A stretch of DNA of 64,000 nt from Veillonella sp. 3310 (GTDB lineage Bacteria; Bacillota; Negativicutes; Veillonellales; Veillonellaceae), in assembly GCF_003999875.1 (NCBI RefSeq), contig NZ_RQVJ01000002.1:124001-188000 (forward strand), written 5' to 3'. Positions 14,784 through 60,172 of this stretch are shown here, piece by piece. The position numbers and the translations under genes were made by a program. Each line of letters opens with the position of its first letter. Positions within the stretch are counted from its first letter, which is position 1. Below the pieces are notes generated by a model. That model was not told where the DNA came from, searched no databases, and saw nothing but the letters and a program-made list of their open reading frames with translations.

Positions 14784-16205
14784 ATGAACAAAAAAATCAT
14801 CAATGCCTTGATTACGTGGGCTATCCCATTGATAATCTGGTTCACTCCAGCTCCAGAAGGCTTAGCTGACGGCGCTTGGAAATTGTTTGGCTTTTATTTA
14901 GCCGCTATCGTTGGTTTGGTATTAAAACCATTCCCAGCTCCAGTAGCAGTATTATCTGCCATTGGTGCCTCTGCATTATTTTTAAATAATCCAAAAGAAG
15001 TATTGTCTGGATATGCATCTACTACAACATGGTTGATCTTTGCGGCATTCTCCATTTCTGTAGCCTTCGTAAAAACGGGTTTGGGTCGTCGTATTGCGTA
15101 TCATATGATTGATGCCTTCGGTCATACTACACTTCGTCTTGGTTATGTAACTGCTTTATTGGACGGAATTATTTCCCCAGCTACACCATCCAACACAGCT
15201 CGTTGTGGTGGTATCGTATTCCCAATCATGAACTCTGTAGCAAGATCTTTAGGTTCTGAACCTGGTGAAACAGCGAATAAAGTAGGTCGTTACCTAATGA
15301 CTAATACATATATGGTAACAAAAATAACATCCCTTTTATTCTTAACAGCCATGGCGCCAAATGCATTGGCAGCGGATTACTTCAAAAAAATCCTAGGCCT
15401 TTCTATTGACTGGGTAACTTGGGCAGTAGCTTTATTCGTACCTGGTTTGATTTTGTTATTGATTACTCCATTCGTATCTTATGTATTAAATAAACCTGAG
15501 TTGAAAGAAATCGACAATAAGAAAATTGCTCGTGAAGGGTTGGCAGAATTAGGCCCTGTATCGACAGGTGAAAAAGTATTAATTACTATTTTCTTCTTAT
15601 CCTTACTTGGATGGGCATTACCATCTATCCTTGGTATGGTAGGTATTAAATTTAAATTAGATGCGACAGCAGTAGCATTAGTAGCGATGGTATCTTGCTA
15701 CATATTCGGCGCTATCAAGTGGGAAGATGCTCTTCAAAACAAAGGTGGCTGGAACACATTGATCTGGTTCGGTGGTATCCTTGGTTTATCCGGTGCGTTA
15801 ACAAAAGCGGATTTCTTCATTTGGTTAGCAAAAGTGTTAGAAGCTCAAATGAACTTCGGACATCATGAGACATTGGCACTTGTGGTGATTGCAGTGTTGT
15901 CTGTGCTAGTTCGTTACTTGTTTGCATCCGGCAGTGCTTACATTGCAGCCATGGTACCGGTATTCTTTACAGTTGGTAAAGTGGCGGGCATTGACCCTTG
16001 GACATTAGGTCTTGTAATCTTCATGACAAATGCCTTCGGTGGTGCTGTAACTCACTTTGGTGGTGGACCTGGCCCAATTGTATTCGGTGAAGGCTACAAC
16101 GAAGTTCGCCAATGGTGGGTAACTGGTGCAGTAGTGGCTGTATTAGGCTTGATTGTGACACTTGGCTTTGGTCCGATTTGGTGGTCCATTGTAGGATTAA
16201 TCTAA
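14784..16205 (+). CDS. DASS-family citrate/dicarboxylate transporter (CitT-like)
   Basis: 473 aa with about 12-14 membrane segments. Typical anion:Na+ symporter/DASS features are a start rich in charged and aromatic residues (MNKKIINALITWAIPLIIWF), the first-half motif ISPATPSNTARCGGIVFPI near residue 130, and the second-half ASGSAYIAAMVPVF and AVTHFGGGPGPIVFGEGY. The start at 14784 has AAGGAGACACAAG upstream; an in-frame ATG at 14727 has no RBS. It lies ahead of citDEF and behind a LysR gene, so citrate, tartrate or succinate antiport is likely. A paralogue lies at 46480-47880. Confidence 0.87.
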   Translation: MNKKIINALITWAIPLIIWFTPAPEGLADGAWKLFGFYLAAIVGLVLKPFPAPVAVLSAIGASALFLNNPKEVLSGYASTTTWLIFAAFSISVAFVKTGLGRRIAYHMIDAFGHTTLRLGYVTALLDGIISPATPSNTARCGGIVFPIMNSVARSLGSEPGETANKVGRYLMTNTYMVTKITSLLFLTAMAPNALAADYFKKILGLSIDWVTWAVALFVPGLILLLITPFVSYVLNKPELKEIDNKKIAREGLAELGPVSTGEKVLITIFFLSLLGWALPSILGMVGIKFKLDATAVALVAMVSCYIFGAIKWEDALQNKGGWNTLIWFGGILGLSGALTKADFFIWLAKVLEAQMNFGHHETLALVVIAVLSVLVRYLFASGSAYIAAMVPVFFTVGKVAGIDPWTLGLVIFMTNAFGGAVTHFGGGPGPIVFGEGYNEVRQWWVTGAVVAVLGLIVTLGFGPIWWSIVGLI

Positions 16206-24876: not shown

Positions 24877-24902
24877 AAAGCGACTGTTTTCACAGTCGCT
24901 TT
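24877..24902 (-). terminator. terminator of the rubrerythrin transcript
   Basis: Read on the minus strand: AAAGCGACTG, loop, CAGTCGCTTT followed by a run of six T and then GTATG. It lies about 200 bases beyond the stop codon, so the mRNA has an unusually long 3' tail. Confidence 0.88.
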
Positions 24903-24923
24903 AGTATACCTATACTAGCTCTA

Positions 24924-25094
24924 ACCCACTTGGGATGATGTATATGTAATTTGACCCACTTGGGTAGATATCATTACTACTTAGTATATTGTGTATATCA
25001 GGCACTTGCCTTTAGAACTACTTAGTTCTTATGTTGATTGGTTTGTATCACTTGATACAGTTGTATAGTACTTATCTAAGAAACCACTCGGTTT
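24924..25094 (-). repeat. array of eight mini-hairpins with a common AAGT-type loop in the rubrerythrin 3' untranslated region
   Basis: On the minus strand the hairpins read in order: AAACC-GAGT-GGTTT (25094-25081), TAGaT-AAGT-ACTA (loop 25073-25070), GTATC-AAGT-GATAC (25057-25046), AGAACT-AAGT-AGTTCT (25029-25014), GGC-AAGT-GCC (25010-25001), TACT-AAGT-AGTA (24986-24975), ACCC-AAGT-GGGT (24965-24954) and CCC-AAGT-GGG (24934-24925). Stems differ completely yet stay complementary, while the four-base loop is constant. Loops are spaced 16-30 bases apart. Related hairpins sit in the 5' leader of the same gene. The structure is seen directly; its function is unknown. Confidence 0.85.
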
Positions 25095-25099
25095 ACTAA

Positions 25100-25648
25100 T
25101 TAGATAAGAGTTTCTCCGTGTTGAGAGAAGAATGCTTGTGGATGAGCACATACTGGGCAAAGTTTAGGAGCTTCTTCACCGATGTGGATGTAACCACAGT
25201 TAGCACAGATCCAAGCAACTGGTTGTTCACGTTTGAACACTGTACCGCCTTCAACAGCTGTTACAAGGTCAAGGTAACGTTCTTCGTGACGAGCTTCGAT
25301 AACACCAACTTGTTCGAATAAGTAAGCGATTTTAGCGAAACCTTCTTCTTTTGCAACTTTAGCAAATTCTGGGTACATTACAGTGTGTTCGTAGTGTTCA
25401 CCAGCAGCAGCGTCTTTTAAGTTGATCGCTACGTCAGCGTTTACATCGCCACCGTGTAATAATTTGAACCATACTTTAGCATGAGCGGATTCGTTGATTG
25501 CTGTTTCTTCGAAGTAATCAGCGATTTTGTTCATACCAGCTTTGCGAGCTGCACTTGCATAGTATGTATATTTACGGTTAGCTTGAGATTCACCAGCGAA
25601 TGCTGCTTGAAGATTTTTTTCTGTTTGAGTACCTTTTAATTCTGGCAT
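25100..25648 (-). CDS. rubrerythrin (peroxide-reducing diiron protein)
   Basis: 182 aa. The N-terminal four-helix ferritin-like domain has the diiron glutamates and histidines (AFAGESQANRKY near residue 14, EETAINESAHAKVWF near 47, EEGFAKIAYLFEQVGVIEARHEERY near 100-125). The C-terminal rubredoxin domain has CANCGYIHIGEEAPKLCPVC (residues 148-167) for one iron. Rubrerythrin reduces hydrogen peroxide in anaerobes, in the cytoplasm. It has a strong promoter with an upstream A/T tract, a 117-base leader and a 200-base tail, both full of small hairpins, which suggests post-transcriptional control or a second RNA role. Confidence 0.95.
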   Translation of the reverse strand: MPELKGTQTEKNLQAAFAGESQANRKYTYYASAARKAGMNKIADYFEETAINESAHAKVWFKLLHGGDVNADVAINLKDAAAGEHYEHTVMYPEFAKVAKEEGFAKIAYLFEQVGVIEARHEERYLDLVTAVEGGTVFKREQPVAWICANCGYIHIGEEAPKLCPVCAHPQAFFSQHGETLI

Positions 25649-25660
25649 TTTCTTTCCTCC

Positions 25661-25754
25661 ATGTACTTTACATAGTTGTAATAAAATAAATACTTATTTG
25701 TATAGTGGGCTTGTTCACCTGAACAAGTCCCTATTGATTTCGTTACTTAACGAA
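25661..25754 (-). promoter_or_regulatory. structured 5' leader of rubrerythrin with AAGT-type hairpins
   Basis: Minus strand, in order: TTCGTT-AAGT-AACGAA (25754-25739); a 10-bp stem with loop AGGT (25730-25707); AAAT-AAGT-ATTT (25699-25688); and ATGTA-AAG-TACAT (25673-25661), which ends directly at the Shine-Dalgarno GGAGG (25660-25656). The loops match those of the 3' array of the same mRNA. Confidence 0.8.
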
Positions 25755-26170
25755 TAATCATTGTTGATTACATTATAGACTATGAAAATGAGAAATGCAA
25801 GTCTTTTTTTAGAAAATTTTAAAAATTTTTTATAAATGATAAAGCCTCTCAATCGGCTTTGTTATCGCATTTATAGCTATTTAATTCCCTATGAAAATAA
25901 GGGGATTATACAGAATAGAAATTGAGAATCGAACTCAAAAGATAAAACCATAATGATAATATATAGAAAACCCTCTATTTATAGGCTTTCCTAGATAGGA
26001 AGAAGAAACGGGTGCTTATGAGATACTACTAAGTGATACTAGTCATCAATGGTACTGGTATATTTGTATAAGATAGAGGAGAAACTTTTACAAATGCACA
26101 TAGGGCCCTATAGAGAAATATAAAGTTAGATGATATACTATACACATAATCATGAAAATAGGAGGTGCCT
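25755..26170. other. intergenic region between rubrerythrin and the DUF951 gene
   Basis: Holds the rubrerythrin promoter on the left and a short hairpin AAAGCC/GGCTTT near 25841-25861. An extended -10 for the DUF951 gene, TGA-TATACT, lies at 26131-26139. The middle (about 25870-26120) shows nothing recognisable. Confidence 0.5.
25772..25832 (-). promoter_or_regulatory. strong promoter of rubrerythrin with A/T-rich upstream element
   Basis: On the minus strand: TTGCAT (25800-25795), 17 bases, TATAAT (25777-25772). Directly upstream (25801-25832) lie alternating A and T tracts, as in an UP element. The expected start is near 25765. No Fur- or PerR-like box was recognised here. Confidence 0.8.
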
Positions 26171-26421: not shown

Positions 26422-27450
26422 ATGGTTGATTTAACGAAATATGCAGCCAAGGGTGGTTGCGCGTGTAAGATTGGGCCTCATATCTTAGCGGATGTGTTAC
26501 AACATATGCTGATGCCTACGCATCCAGCTGTATTGACCGATGCGTCTGGTATGGAAGATGCTGGGGTGTATCAAATTAATGATAGTCAAGCCATTGTACA
26601 GACGGTGGATTTTTTTACACCTCCAGTGGCAGATCCTAGACTCTTTGGTAGAGTGGCGGCGTGTAATAGCCTAAGCGATGTATATGCTATGGGTGGTACT
26701 CCTATCTCAGCGCTGAATATTGTAGGCTTTCCGGTGCCTTTAGTGAAAGAAGGTGTCCTTCGTGAGGTATTAGAAGGTGCCAATGAGGTCTTACTAGAGA
26801 CGGGAGTAGCTCTTCTTGGTGGTCACAGTATCGAAAATGAAGTGCCTGTTTTTGGGATGGCTGTGACAGGTCTCATCGATCCTCGTCATATTTGGACCAA
26901 TGGGGATGCTCGAGTTGGTGATGTGCTGATTCTATCTAAACCGATTGGGACCGGAATTATGAACACGGCTGCAAAAGGTGGCGTATTCCCTGAAGGTGTG
27001 CAGGAAGCTATGCAAAGCATGGGGACGATTAATAAAGGGGCTCGAGATGTGGCTGCACAGTTTGCCGTTCATGGCTGTACGGATATTACAGGATTTAGTT
27101 TAATTGGTCATGTATCTGAAATGGCAAAAGCCAGTGGAACTTCTATTGAACTCTATGCGGAGCAAATTCCTCTATTTACCGATGTATTAGAGGCTGCTCG
27201 TATGGGCCTCGTCCCTGCAGCGACGTATGGAAATCGCAAGGCTTTAGGTGATCAAGCAGAATTCGAGGACTACTTAGATCCTGTATGGAGTGATATTTGC
27301 TTCGACCCGCAAACATCGGGTGGTTTATTATTTGCGTGTTCTGAAAGTGAAGGGAAACAGCTACTTTCAAAGTTACAAGAAAAAGGTTTACAGGCTGCAC
27401 AGATTGGCCGTGTCATTCAGGAAGGAAGGAAACAAGTATATGTCAAATAA
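26422..27450 (+). CDS. selD: selenide, water dikinase
   Basis: Makes selenophosphate from selenide and ATP, for selenocysteine, selenouridine or labile-selenium cofactors. 342 aa. The catalytic motif is GGCACK at residues 11-16, with Cys13 in the position of E. coli Cys17 and Lys16 matching Lys20. No in-frame TGA is needed, so this is the cysteine form. Other matches: FFTPPVADPRLFGRVAACNSLSDVYAMGG, GGHSIENEVPVFGMAVTG, TDITGFSLIGH and DPQTSGGLL near the C-terminus. It overlaps yedF, forming a selenium unit. Confidence 0.96.
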   Translation: MVDLTKYAAKGGCACKIGPHILADVLQHMLMPTHPAVLTDASGMEDAGVYQINDSQAIVQTVDFFTPPVADPRLFGRVAACNSLSDVYAMGGTPISALNIVGFPVPLVKEGVLREVLEGANEVLLETGVALLGGHSIENEVPVFGMAVTGLIDPRHIWTNGDARVGDVLILSKPIGTGIMNTAAKGGVFPEGVQEAMQSMGTINKGARDVAAQFAVHGCTDITGFSLIGHVSEMAKASGTSIELYAEQIPLFTDVLEAARMGLVPAATYGNRKALGDQAEFEDYLDPVWSDICFDPQTSGGLLFACSESEGKQLLSKLQEKGLQAAQIGRVIQEGRKQVYVK

Positions 27451-28312
27451 AGAAGTAACTATAGATATGCGAGGTCAAGTATGCCCAGCACCAGTGATTG
27501 AAGCGAAAAAGGCGATGGATGCCGATGCAAATACGTATGTAAAAGTCATCGTTGATAATGACGTGAGTCGTGACAATGTGGTGAAATTAGGGGAATACCG
27601 AGGCTATGAAAACCATGTGTTAGAGCAAGAAGGAAATTACATTGTGGTATTGATTCCGCCTACAGCAGTGAAAGAGGAAGTGGCTGCGGTTAGTGCTGTG
27701 AATATTCAAACATCGAATGATCTAGAAGACCTAGATTTGGAAGATATTTTTGAAAATGAATTTGCCGCACCTTTAGGAAAGGTCGTAACGAATACAACGA
27801 TTGCTGGTGGGGAAGCTCCGTTTTATATGACGAATGGAACCGGTAGTCTAGAACGTAGTATTGCAGCCTATGAAAAAACAAAAGCAGAAAAAGCGGCTAT
27901 GGGTGCGCCAATTAGTCAAGATACAGTGCCACCTGAATTGATGGGAGCCGTGGTGCCTTCTGTGCCAACCGCTTCTATGGGTGGTAAAGTGTTGCTATTC
28001 ACGAAGGATTATTTAGGTGAAGGTAGTGAAGAGTTAGGCCGCAACTTGATGAAAACATTCATCTATGTATTGACGGAAACGGATGTGAAACCCAAAGCCA
28101 TCTATTGCATCAATAGTGCTGTTAAAATGCTTGTAGAAGGGTCTGAACATATTGAAAACTTCAAAGTCTTAGAAGCTGCAGGCGTGACTGTAAGTGGTTG
28201 TGGTATTTGCTTAGACTTTTATGGGGTAAAAGATAAAGTACAAGTGGGCACTATTACCAATCTCTATGCTATTACTGAAAGCATGATGCAAGAACCATTT
28301 GTTACATTGTAA
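27440..28312 (+). CDS. yedF: YedF-type selenium metabolism protein (TusA + DsrE-like fusion)
   Basis: 290 aa. The N-terminal TusA/SirA domain holds the CPAP motif (RGQVCPAPVIEAKKAM, residues 10-25). A linker follows (about 80-165), then a DsrE/F-like domain (VLLFTKDYLGEGSEELGRNLM) with a conserved cysteine pair in GCGICLDFYG near 250. This two-domain form occurs with selD and is thought to carry or deliver selenium; that role is inferred for the family. ATG 27440 overlaps the end of selD and has AAGGAAGGAAACAAG upstream, so the two are translationally coupled. Confidence 0.92.
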   Translation: MSNKEVTIDMRGQVCPAPVIEAKKAMDADANTYVKVIVDNDVSRDNVVKLGEYRGYENHVLEQEGNYIVVLIPPTAVKEEVAAVSAVNIQTSNDLEDLDLEDIFENEFAAPLGKVVTNTTIAGGEAPFYMTNGTGSLERSIAAYEKTKAEKAAMGAPISQDTVPPELMGAVVPSVPTASMGGKVLLFTKDYLGEGSEELGRNLMKTFIYVLTETDVKPKAIYCINSAVKMLVEGSEHIENFKVLEAAGVTVSGCGICLDFYGVKDKVQVGTITNLYAITESMMQEPFVTL

Positions 28313-35799: not shown

Positions 35800-35980
35800 A
35801 GGTCAAGTGGTGAATGATGAATAGGCAGTTCTCCTGACTCAGCTTCAACGCGCCTCCAGCCTTCCCAGTTTCCCAGTGACATAATTTGGATTTGCTCTGC
35901 TTTACAGTGGCGGGACCGTGCCAGACTTTAACTGGCTTCTCTATTATGCTTTCGCACCTATTCCCGAATGTTTGATTGTA
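35800..35980 (-). promoter_or_regulatory. cobalamin (B12) riboswitch aptamer
   Basis: Read on the minus strand it has GGTGCGAAAGC, then GAAGCCAGTTAAAGTCTGGC, the conserved CGGTCCCGCCACTGTAA, an internal GGGAAACTGGGAAGGC region and the B12 box AGTCAGGAGAACTGCC (35839-35824). These are the diagnostic elements of the AdoCbl-type cobalamin riboswitch in the right order. A promoter lies upstream and an intrinsic terminator downstream. No gene follows on this strand: the next feature is the oppositely oriented ADP-ribosylglycohydrolase gene. Confidence 0.93.
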
Positions 35981-59964: not shown

Positions 59965-60172
59965 AAAGAAATTCCTGCTATGTGCGTGTTATATCGCAGT
60001 TTTGAGCCAACATTTTAACTTAGGGATTCTCACTCTTGTAAGGGCGCTCTGCCTCTACGAGGACTGTAATCTTACAAGGAGGAAACCCACCTGCCTTTGC
60101 AGGATCAAAACACGGTATGGATACGGCATAGTGGGGCTTTATGTAACCGCCTGAGGGTGGTTTATTTTTTTT
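59965..60172 (+). ncRNA. ssrS: probable 6S RNA
   Basis: A stretch of about 200 bases with its own promoter and a terminator, between aspS and rarA, the usual place of 6S RNA in Firmicutes. End segments pair (GCTATG near 59979 with CATAG near 60127) and the middle carries CTTGTAAG and CTTACAAG, giving a long rod with a central bulge, the 6S shape that mimics an open promoter. It has no coding capacity. Assignment rests on position, length and folding by eye. Confidence 0.72.
60145..60172 (+). terminator. terminator of the 6S RNA
   Basis: AACCGCC (60145-60151) pairs with GGTGGTT (60156-60162), followed by ATTTTTTTT. Confidence 0.85.

Follow-up and report, generated by a model that had tools for sequence, protein, structure and literature searches.

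AAGU-loop hairpins in the untranslated regions of rubrerythrin and other peroxide and iron mRNAs of the Veillonellaceae point to RNA-level control of oxidative stress

The window, by which we mean the whole 64-kb stretch of DNA analysed here, carries on its minus strand a rubrerythrin gene (rbr) whose message has a 117-nt leader (25765-25649) and a tail, about 220 nt long, that is closed by an intrinsic terminator. Next to rbr, in divergent orientation, lie a selD-like gene and, after it, a TusA/YedF-like selenium gene (26422-28312, plus strand; both named by eye from their open reading frames). The elements of the rbr unit are, in the direction of transcription and with G numbers denoting individual genomes:

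25772-25777, minus strand: promoter -10 box TATAAT, read from the sequence and conserved together with the +1 block in relatives
25754-25764, minus strand: conserved +1 block ACAATGATTAT, present in nearly all genomes of the family that were read, including the hairpin-free genus
25739-25754, minus strand: leader hairpin TTCGTT-AAGT-AACGAA, conserved in six of six genomes of the window's genus
25707-25731, minus strand: leader hairpin with loop AGGT and ten pairs (7 bp, one bulged A, 3 bp); the loop is AAGT in G001-G004, in some with other stems
25688-25699, minus strand: leader hairpin AAAT-AAGT-ATTT, weak alone and absent from the MFE fold
25659-25675, minus strand: leader hairpin CTATGTA-AAG-TACATGG abutting the Shine-Dalgarno sequence, with the variant loop AAAGU
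25656-25660, minus strand: Shine-Dalgarno sequence GGAGG, read from the sequence
25100-25648, minus strand: rubrerythrin coding sequence, 182 aa (NCBIfam rubrerythrin match, 230 bits, above cut-off)
25081-25094, minus strand: tail hairpin AAACC-GAGT-GGTTT (AACC-AAGT-GGTT in G004)
25044-25059, minus strand: tail hairpin TGTATC-AAGT-GATACA
25014-25029, minus strand: tail hairpin AGAACT-AAGT-AGTTCT
25000-25011, minus strand: tail hairpin AGGC-AAGT-GCCT (AAGAT-AAGT-ATCTT in G004)
24975-24986, minus strand: tail hairpin TACT-AAGT-AGTA
24954-24965, minus strand: tail hairpin ACCC-AAGT-GGGT
24925-24934, minus strand: tail hairpin CCC-AAGT-GGG, invariant in six genomes
24902-24917, minus strand: tail hairpin TAGTAT-AGGT-ATACTA (loop AAGT in G001 and G005)
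24877-24902, minus strand: intrinsic terminator with loop GAAA, which is not of the AAGU type

The 5' end of the message is predicted near 25765 from the position of the TATAAT box at 25777-25772; owing to its poor -35 element, this promoter is missing from the output of a consensus promoter scan. The segment from the -10 box through ACAATGATTAT (25754-25777, minus strand) is conserved far above the level of the leader and persists in relatives lacking the hairpins. The +1 block differs by one mismatch from the PerR/Fur-type core, ATAATNATTAT, and is likely a DNA operator; the segment as a whole has the look of a PerR/Fur-type operator that overlaps the rbr start site. The block occurs as an exact 16-mer once per genome searched, and the notion of TCAACAATGATTATTC as a shared operator was rejected, its exact copy being located only at rbr in each genome.

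A first-pass annotation of this DNA had described a series of small hairpins in the leader and had claimed that the same loop type recurs at both ends of the mRNA. The leader hairpins are indeed present in 25765-25649 (minus strand) as described, with the final two G of the hairpin at 25675-25659 being the first two G of GGAGG, and AAGU hairpins occupy both the leader and the tail. In the tail, six hairpins have the loop AAGU and one each AGGU and GAGU, with the terminator after them, and the message as a whole bears about ten AAGU-type hairpins over its two untranslated regions (UTRs). On both strands of the 64-kb window there are nine AAGU hairpins with stems of at least 4 bp, seven of which lie in the rbr UTRs, all on the mRNA strand. 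Relative to 200 dinucleotide shuffles, the folding of the leader (z -4.1, better than all 200) and of the tail (z -4.3) is unusually stable, and AAGT hairpins with stems of at least 4 bp number two in the leader against a shuffle mean of 0.008 and five in the tail against 0.019, with none of 20000 dinucleotide shuffles reaching the observed count in either UTR.

Relatives of rbr were drawn from whole genomes of the family, and their UTRs were counted in 28 Veillonellaceae genomes. Among sense tetraloop hairpins with stems of at least 4 bp, 152 display the loop AAGT and none ACTT, counts that come from genomes of shared ancestry and are not independent of each other. The next most frequent loops reach at most 9, with AGGU (9) and GAGU (7) both being one-step variants, and AAGU makes up 152 of the 168 hairpins with these three loops. 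The loops are borne by 42 different core stems; 35 of these close the loop with C-G or U-A, and the second pair is unbiased. In 12 aligned Veillonella leaders, pairs substituted on both sides number 13, with 5.5 expected and none of 500 shuffles reaching that count, a signal that collapses in slid controls; mean pairwise identity is 0.98 in loop columns, 0.81 in stems and 0.70 in linkers. Loop-to-loop spacing is variable at about 24-25 nt (median 24.5-25). The location of the array differs between genera: in Veillonella proper (V. parvula SKV38, V. atypica, V. tobetsuensis, V. infantium) the rbr 5' UTR bears 3-10 hairpins, the genus of V. intestinalis has them mostly in the 3' UTR, and the window's genus has them at both ends. 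The hairpin adjacent to the Shine-Dalgarno sequence of rbr is conserved. The exceptions are rbr of the genus termed here g3 (G007), which has no hairpins, and G026 and G013, which retain one or a few. Given that the stems vary and covary, that the loop is nearly invariant and that the arrays shift between the 5' and 3' UTRs, these sequence comparisons show that the rbr hairpins are under selection on the RNA loop. Palindromes clustering near a promoter might also be elements acting at the DNA level, either palindromic operators or mobile repeats of the REP/MITE kind. This is exceedingly improbable, as the arms are unrelated and the centre alone is conserved, the loop is fixed in orientation to the mRNA strand (152:0), the hairpins extend through 3' UTRs as far as the terminator, and there are no repeat families; instead of the alike, dispersed copies typical of REP/MITE elements, there are 42 stem cores and a single array in the 464 kb sampled from the window's genome.

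Stem-aware counting covered about 25% of the window's genome (G000, 464 kb) and 19% of G008 (400 kb), with pattern searches for the remainder. In the 464 kb of the window's genome AAGT loops are near background, with 33 against 22.9 expected (stems of at least 4 bp), 7 of the 33 coming from rbr, whose array is the sole one; thus the hairpins are not equally common in other intergenic sequence; equal frequency there is what the first-pass annotation had named as fatal to its proposal. No other same-loop array was found in the sampled portions of G000 and G008 except a coding repeat. An AGGT cluster in locus L068, considered as an array, was set aside as a coding repeat of an autotransporter-like open reading frame. 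A triple-loop pattern run over six whole genomes (G000, G002, G008, G010, G016 and G022) found hairpin arrays at rbr only, among the matches listed, and a genome-wide regulon of arrays was rejected, as this pattern and the sampled stretches show rbr arrays only. Likewise, rubrerythrin genes of other bacteria have no same-loop arrays among the loci scanned (L029, L030 and L093-L165). These distributions bear on the idea that the hairpins are purely structural, with a fast-folding loop that lets them block nucleases or insulate the message and no specific binder, as might be suggested by their presence at either end of a strongly expressed mRNA and by folding z-scores of about -4. We consider it unlikely: outside rbr, AAGU stays close to background in these genomes, the rbr terminator uses a different loop, and a stable loop does not predict that single hairpins turn up again in genes of linked function and not in controls.

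Such single hairpins, with AAGU, GAGU or AGGU loops and usually set against the Shine-Dalgarno sequence, recur in perR and katA, and in the ferritin 3' UTR in one genus; the genes beyond rbr were in part chosen by us as candidates. The expectation of a regulon was hence borne out in part, in that perR, katA and ftn carry hairpins besides rbr, but not in the form of many arrays, as the others hold one or two hairpins. Fur-family regulators, examined as a prediction, have the hairpin in PerR in 27 of 28 genomes (the name PerR reflecting the best NCBIfam match, at 158.8 bits, below the cut-off of 180), and Fur is without it. The perR leaders have AAGU in two genera (6 of 6 and all 14 genomes) and AAGU or GAGU in 7 of 7 genomes of a third; in two genera the hairpins lie against the Shine-Dalgarno sequence, as TTCC-AAGT-GGAA and TTTCC-AAGT-GGAGA, and in the third the stems covary. 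A search for loops adjoining a Shine-Dalgarno sequence recovered katA. In all five genomes of one genus that have a catalase, the katA leader places TAGT-AAGT-ACTA or TTAGT-AGGT-ACTAA immediately ahead of AAGGAGG; two further genera have weaker forms, either short (3 bp plus G-U) or with a UAAGUU hexaloop. AAGU hairpins with differing stems occupy the ferritin 3' UTR in six of seven genomes of one genus; the ferritin Shine-Dalgarno hairpin of the window's genus is of low complexity (TATATAAGTATATA) and present in only three of six genomes. Genus g3 keeps perR, rbr and katA, and hairpins were found in none of the three. Among control leaders, no hairpin was seen in fur (0 of 9), the ahpC/tsa family (0 of 25), dps (0 of 7) or leuC (0 of 4), and AhpC, Dps, Fur and LeuC were rejected as members for want of a consistent hairpin.

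Outside this set, the leader of an NCS2-type permease has TCGT-AAGT-ACGA directly before GAGGAGG (L196 at about 1490, minus strand; L197 at 1571, plus strand), and the same Shine-Dalgarno hairpin is found in NCS2-permease leaders of three Veillonella genomes, implying that the set is not purely one of peroxide genes or that some single hairpins are due to chance.

The hairpins probably represent sites for a trans-acting factor that would govern a set of peroxide and iron mRNAs post-transcriptionally. A loop fixed in sequence on stems that are free, in one orientation, adjacent to the Shine-Dalgarno sequence in linked mRNAs and clustered on one of them, has an anatomy like that of CsrA sites and suggests a loop-reading protein. 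We infer the binder, its protein nature, the direction of control and the decoy role. Most likely an RNA-binding protein with sequence specificity, the factor would read the AAGU loop, tolerating GAGU and AGGU, when closed by a pyrimidine-purine pair, and would ignore the stem sequence; its predicted targets are the mRNAs of rbr, perR and katA, joined in some genera by that of ferritin. It would control translation, competing with the ribosome at hairpins that adjoin or overlap the Shine-Dalgarno sequence in the manner of CsrA at its own sites, and through sites in 3' UTRs it would probably control stability. The multiple sites on rbr could allow cooperative control or protection of the mRNA, and abundant rbr mRNA could titrate the putative factor away from mRNAs with a single site. 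A feedback circuit, as also proposed in the first-pass annotation, is plausible because the PerR mRNA shares the motif. In a further reading, to which we give a minor share of probability, the rbr message would be mainly a sponge, its 8-12 AAGU hairpins sequestering a regulator whose true targets would be perR and katA. This would suit the many sites on rbr mRNA as against one or two on the others, the placement of arrays in either UTR, as a decoy would predict, the abundance of rbr transcripts in oral Veillonella (PMC4374535) and the precedent of a dual-function mRNA, flaA, which titrates CsrA in Campylobacter (PMC4894983), but the conserved hairpin next to the rbr Shine-Dalgarno sequence suggests control in cis as well. 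A small RNA kissing the AAGU loops could replace the protein and, the loops being identical, address all sites at once; this is quite improbable, since only 4 nt are held in common and the closing pair is a degenerate Y-R, which would make pairing very weak, and clusters of ACUU-loop hairpins in the sampled 864 kb are just the complement of rbr.

The putative protein-binding sites invite comparison with several known systems. Like the sites of CsrA/RsmA and the decoys CsrB/RsmZ, they are small hairpins displaying one motif in the loop, adjoining or overlapping the Shine-Dalgarno sequence, with multi-site RNAs as possible sponges. CsrA needs GGA, usually in the loop, whereas here the loop is AAGU on a peroxide and iron mRNA set, and GGA occurs in none of the three loop variants (AAGU, AGGU, GAGU) of the rbr UTRs. 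The PerR regulon is similar in that perR, rbr and katA share both the hairpins and PerR/Fur-type promoter boxes; PerR, however, acts on DNA, and the hairpin set is at the RNA level and absent from g3 despite its perR, rbr and katA. The katA and perR promoters contain PerR/Fur-type palindromes. In most catalase promoters of the family a perfect or near-perfect palindrome, GGATAATAATTATCC, follows just after the -10 box (L204-L220, upstream of katA). With such boxes at the katA, perR and rbr promoters, the same genes would come under control both at transcription and at the RNA level. The yeast RNase III Rnt1p has an RNA-binding domain that recognises the same AAGU/AGNN tetraloop, which is the loop seen here. 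It cleaves long stems below the loop, cleavage needing a stem of about 13-16 bp, whereas the stems of these hairpins are 3-9 bp; we know of no bacterial RNase III that reads the loop. ANTAR antiterminators (AmiR/NasR/EutV) likewise recognise short repeated hairpins with conserved loop bases; their sites are paired hexaloops with A1 and G4 overlapping a terminator, and the rbr hairpins are tetraloops at variable spacing. The eukaryotic IRE/IRP system also uses loop-specific hairpins in the 5' and 3' UTRs of ferritin and of oxidative and iron genes, with a core AGU that is contained in AAGU. An IRE needs a CAGUGN loop that has a C-G pair across it and a bulged base on its 3' side, together with a 5-bp upper helix and a bulged C8 (PMC8466369), and this set of features was not found in the loops and stems of the rbr hairpins. 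An aconitase/IRP was rejected as the binder, full-length aconitase being absent from G000 and other array-bearing genomes; G000, G002-G005, G008, G018, G022 and G027 have only a LeuC-type match of about 420-432 aa, and an aconitase-type IRP is therefore not present in every genome with the sites. It is our tentative view, held at rather less than even confidence, that a new RNA-binding protein of the Veillonellaceae may read Y-[AAGU]-R and define an RNA-level regulon of rbr, perR, katA and ferritin, comparable to CsrA or IRP yet unrelated to them, with rbr mRNA as its sponge.

The peroxide defence of anaerobes is usually explained by PerR acting at promoters, and the hairpins would add a second, RNA-level control of PerR's own mRNA and of the main peroxide and iron genes. 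Taken as arrays and singles, they point to an undiscovered RNA-level system for the control of oxidative stress. They are shared by Veillonella of the mouth and of the gut, with V. parvula SKV38 among the carriers. The AAGU loop offers a direct bait for finding the putative binder, and g3, with perR, rbr and katA kept and hairpins absent, provides a natural contrast for locating its gene. We found no report of an AAGU-hairpin element in the literature, and rubrerythrin, catalase and ferritin all go unmentioned in the main text of a survey of structured RNAs that includes Veillonella motifs (PMC8632094). No Rfam covariance model matches the rbr region at its gathering score, with weak chance matches to snoRNAs (E 2-5) at five rbr loci. 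Elsewhere in the window, Rfam models match a cobalamin riboswitch (35807-35976, minus strand), a 6S RNA (59969-60141, plus strand) and the antisense-RNA model Ysr283 (15225-15477, minus strand), the last being odd outside Yersinia.
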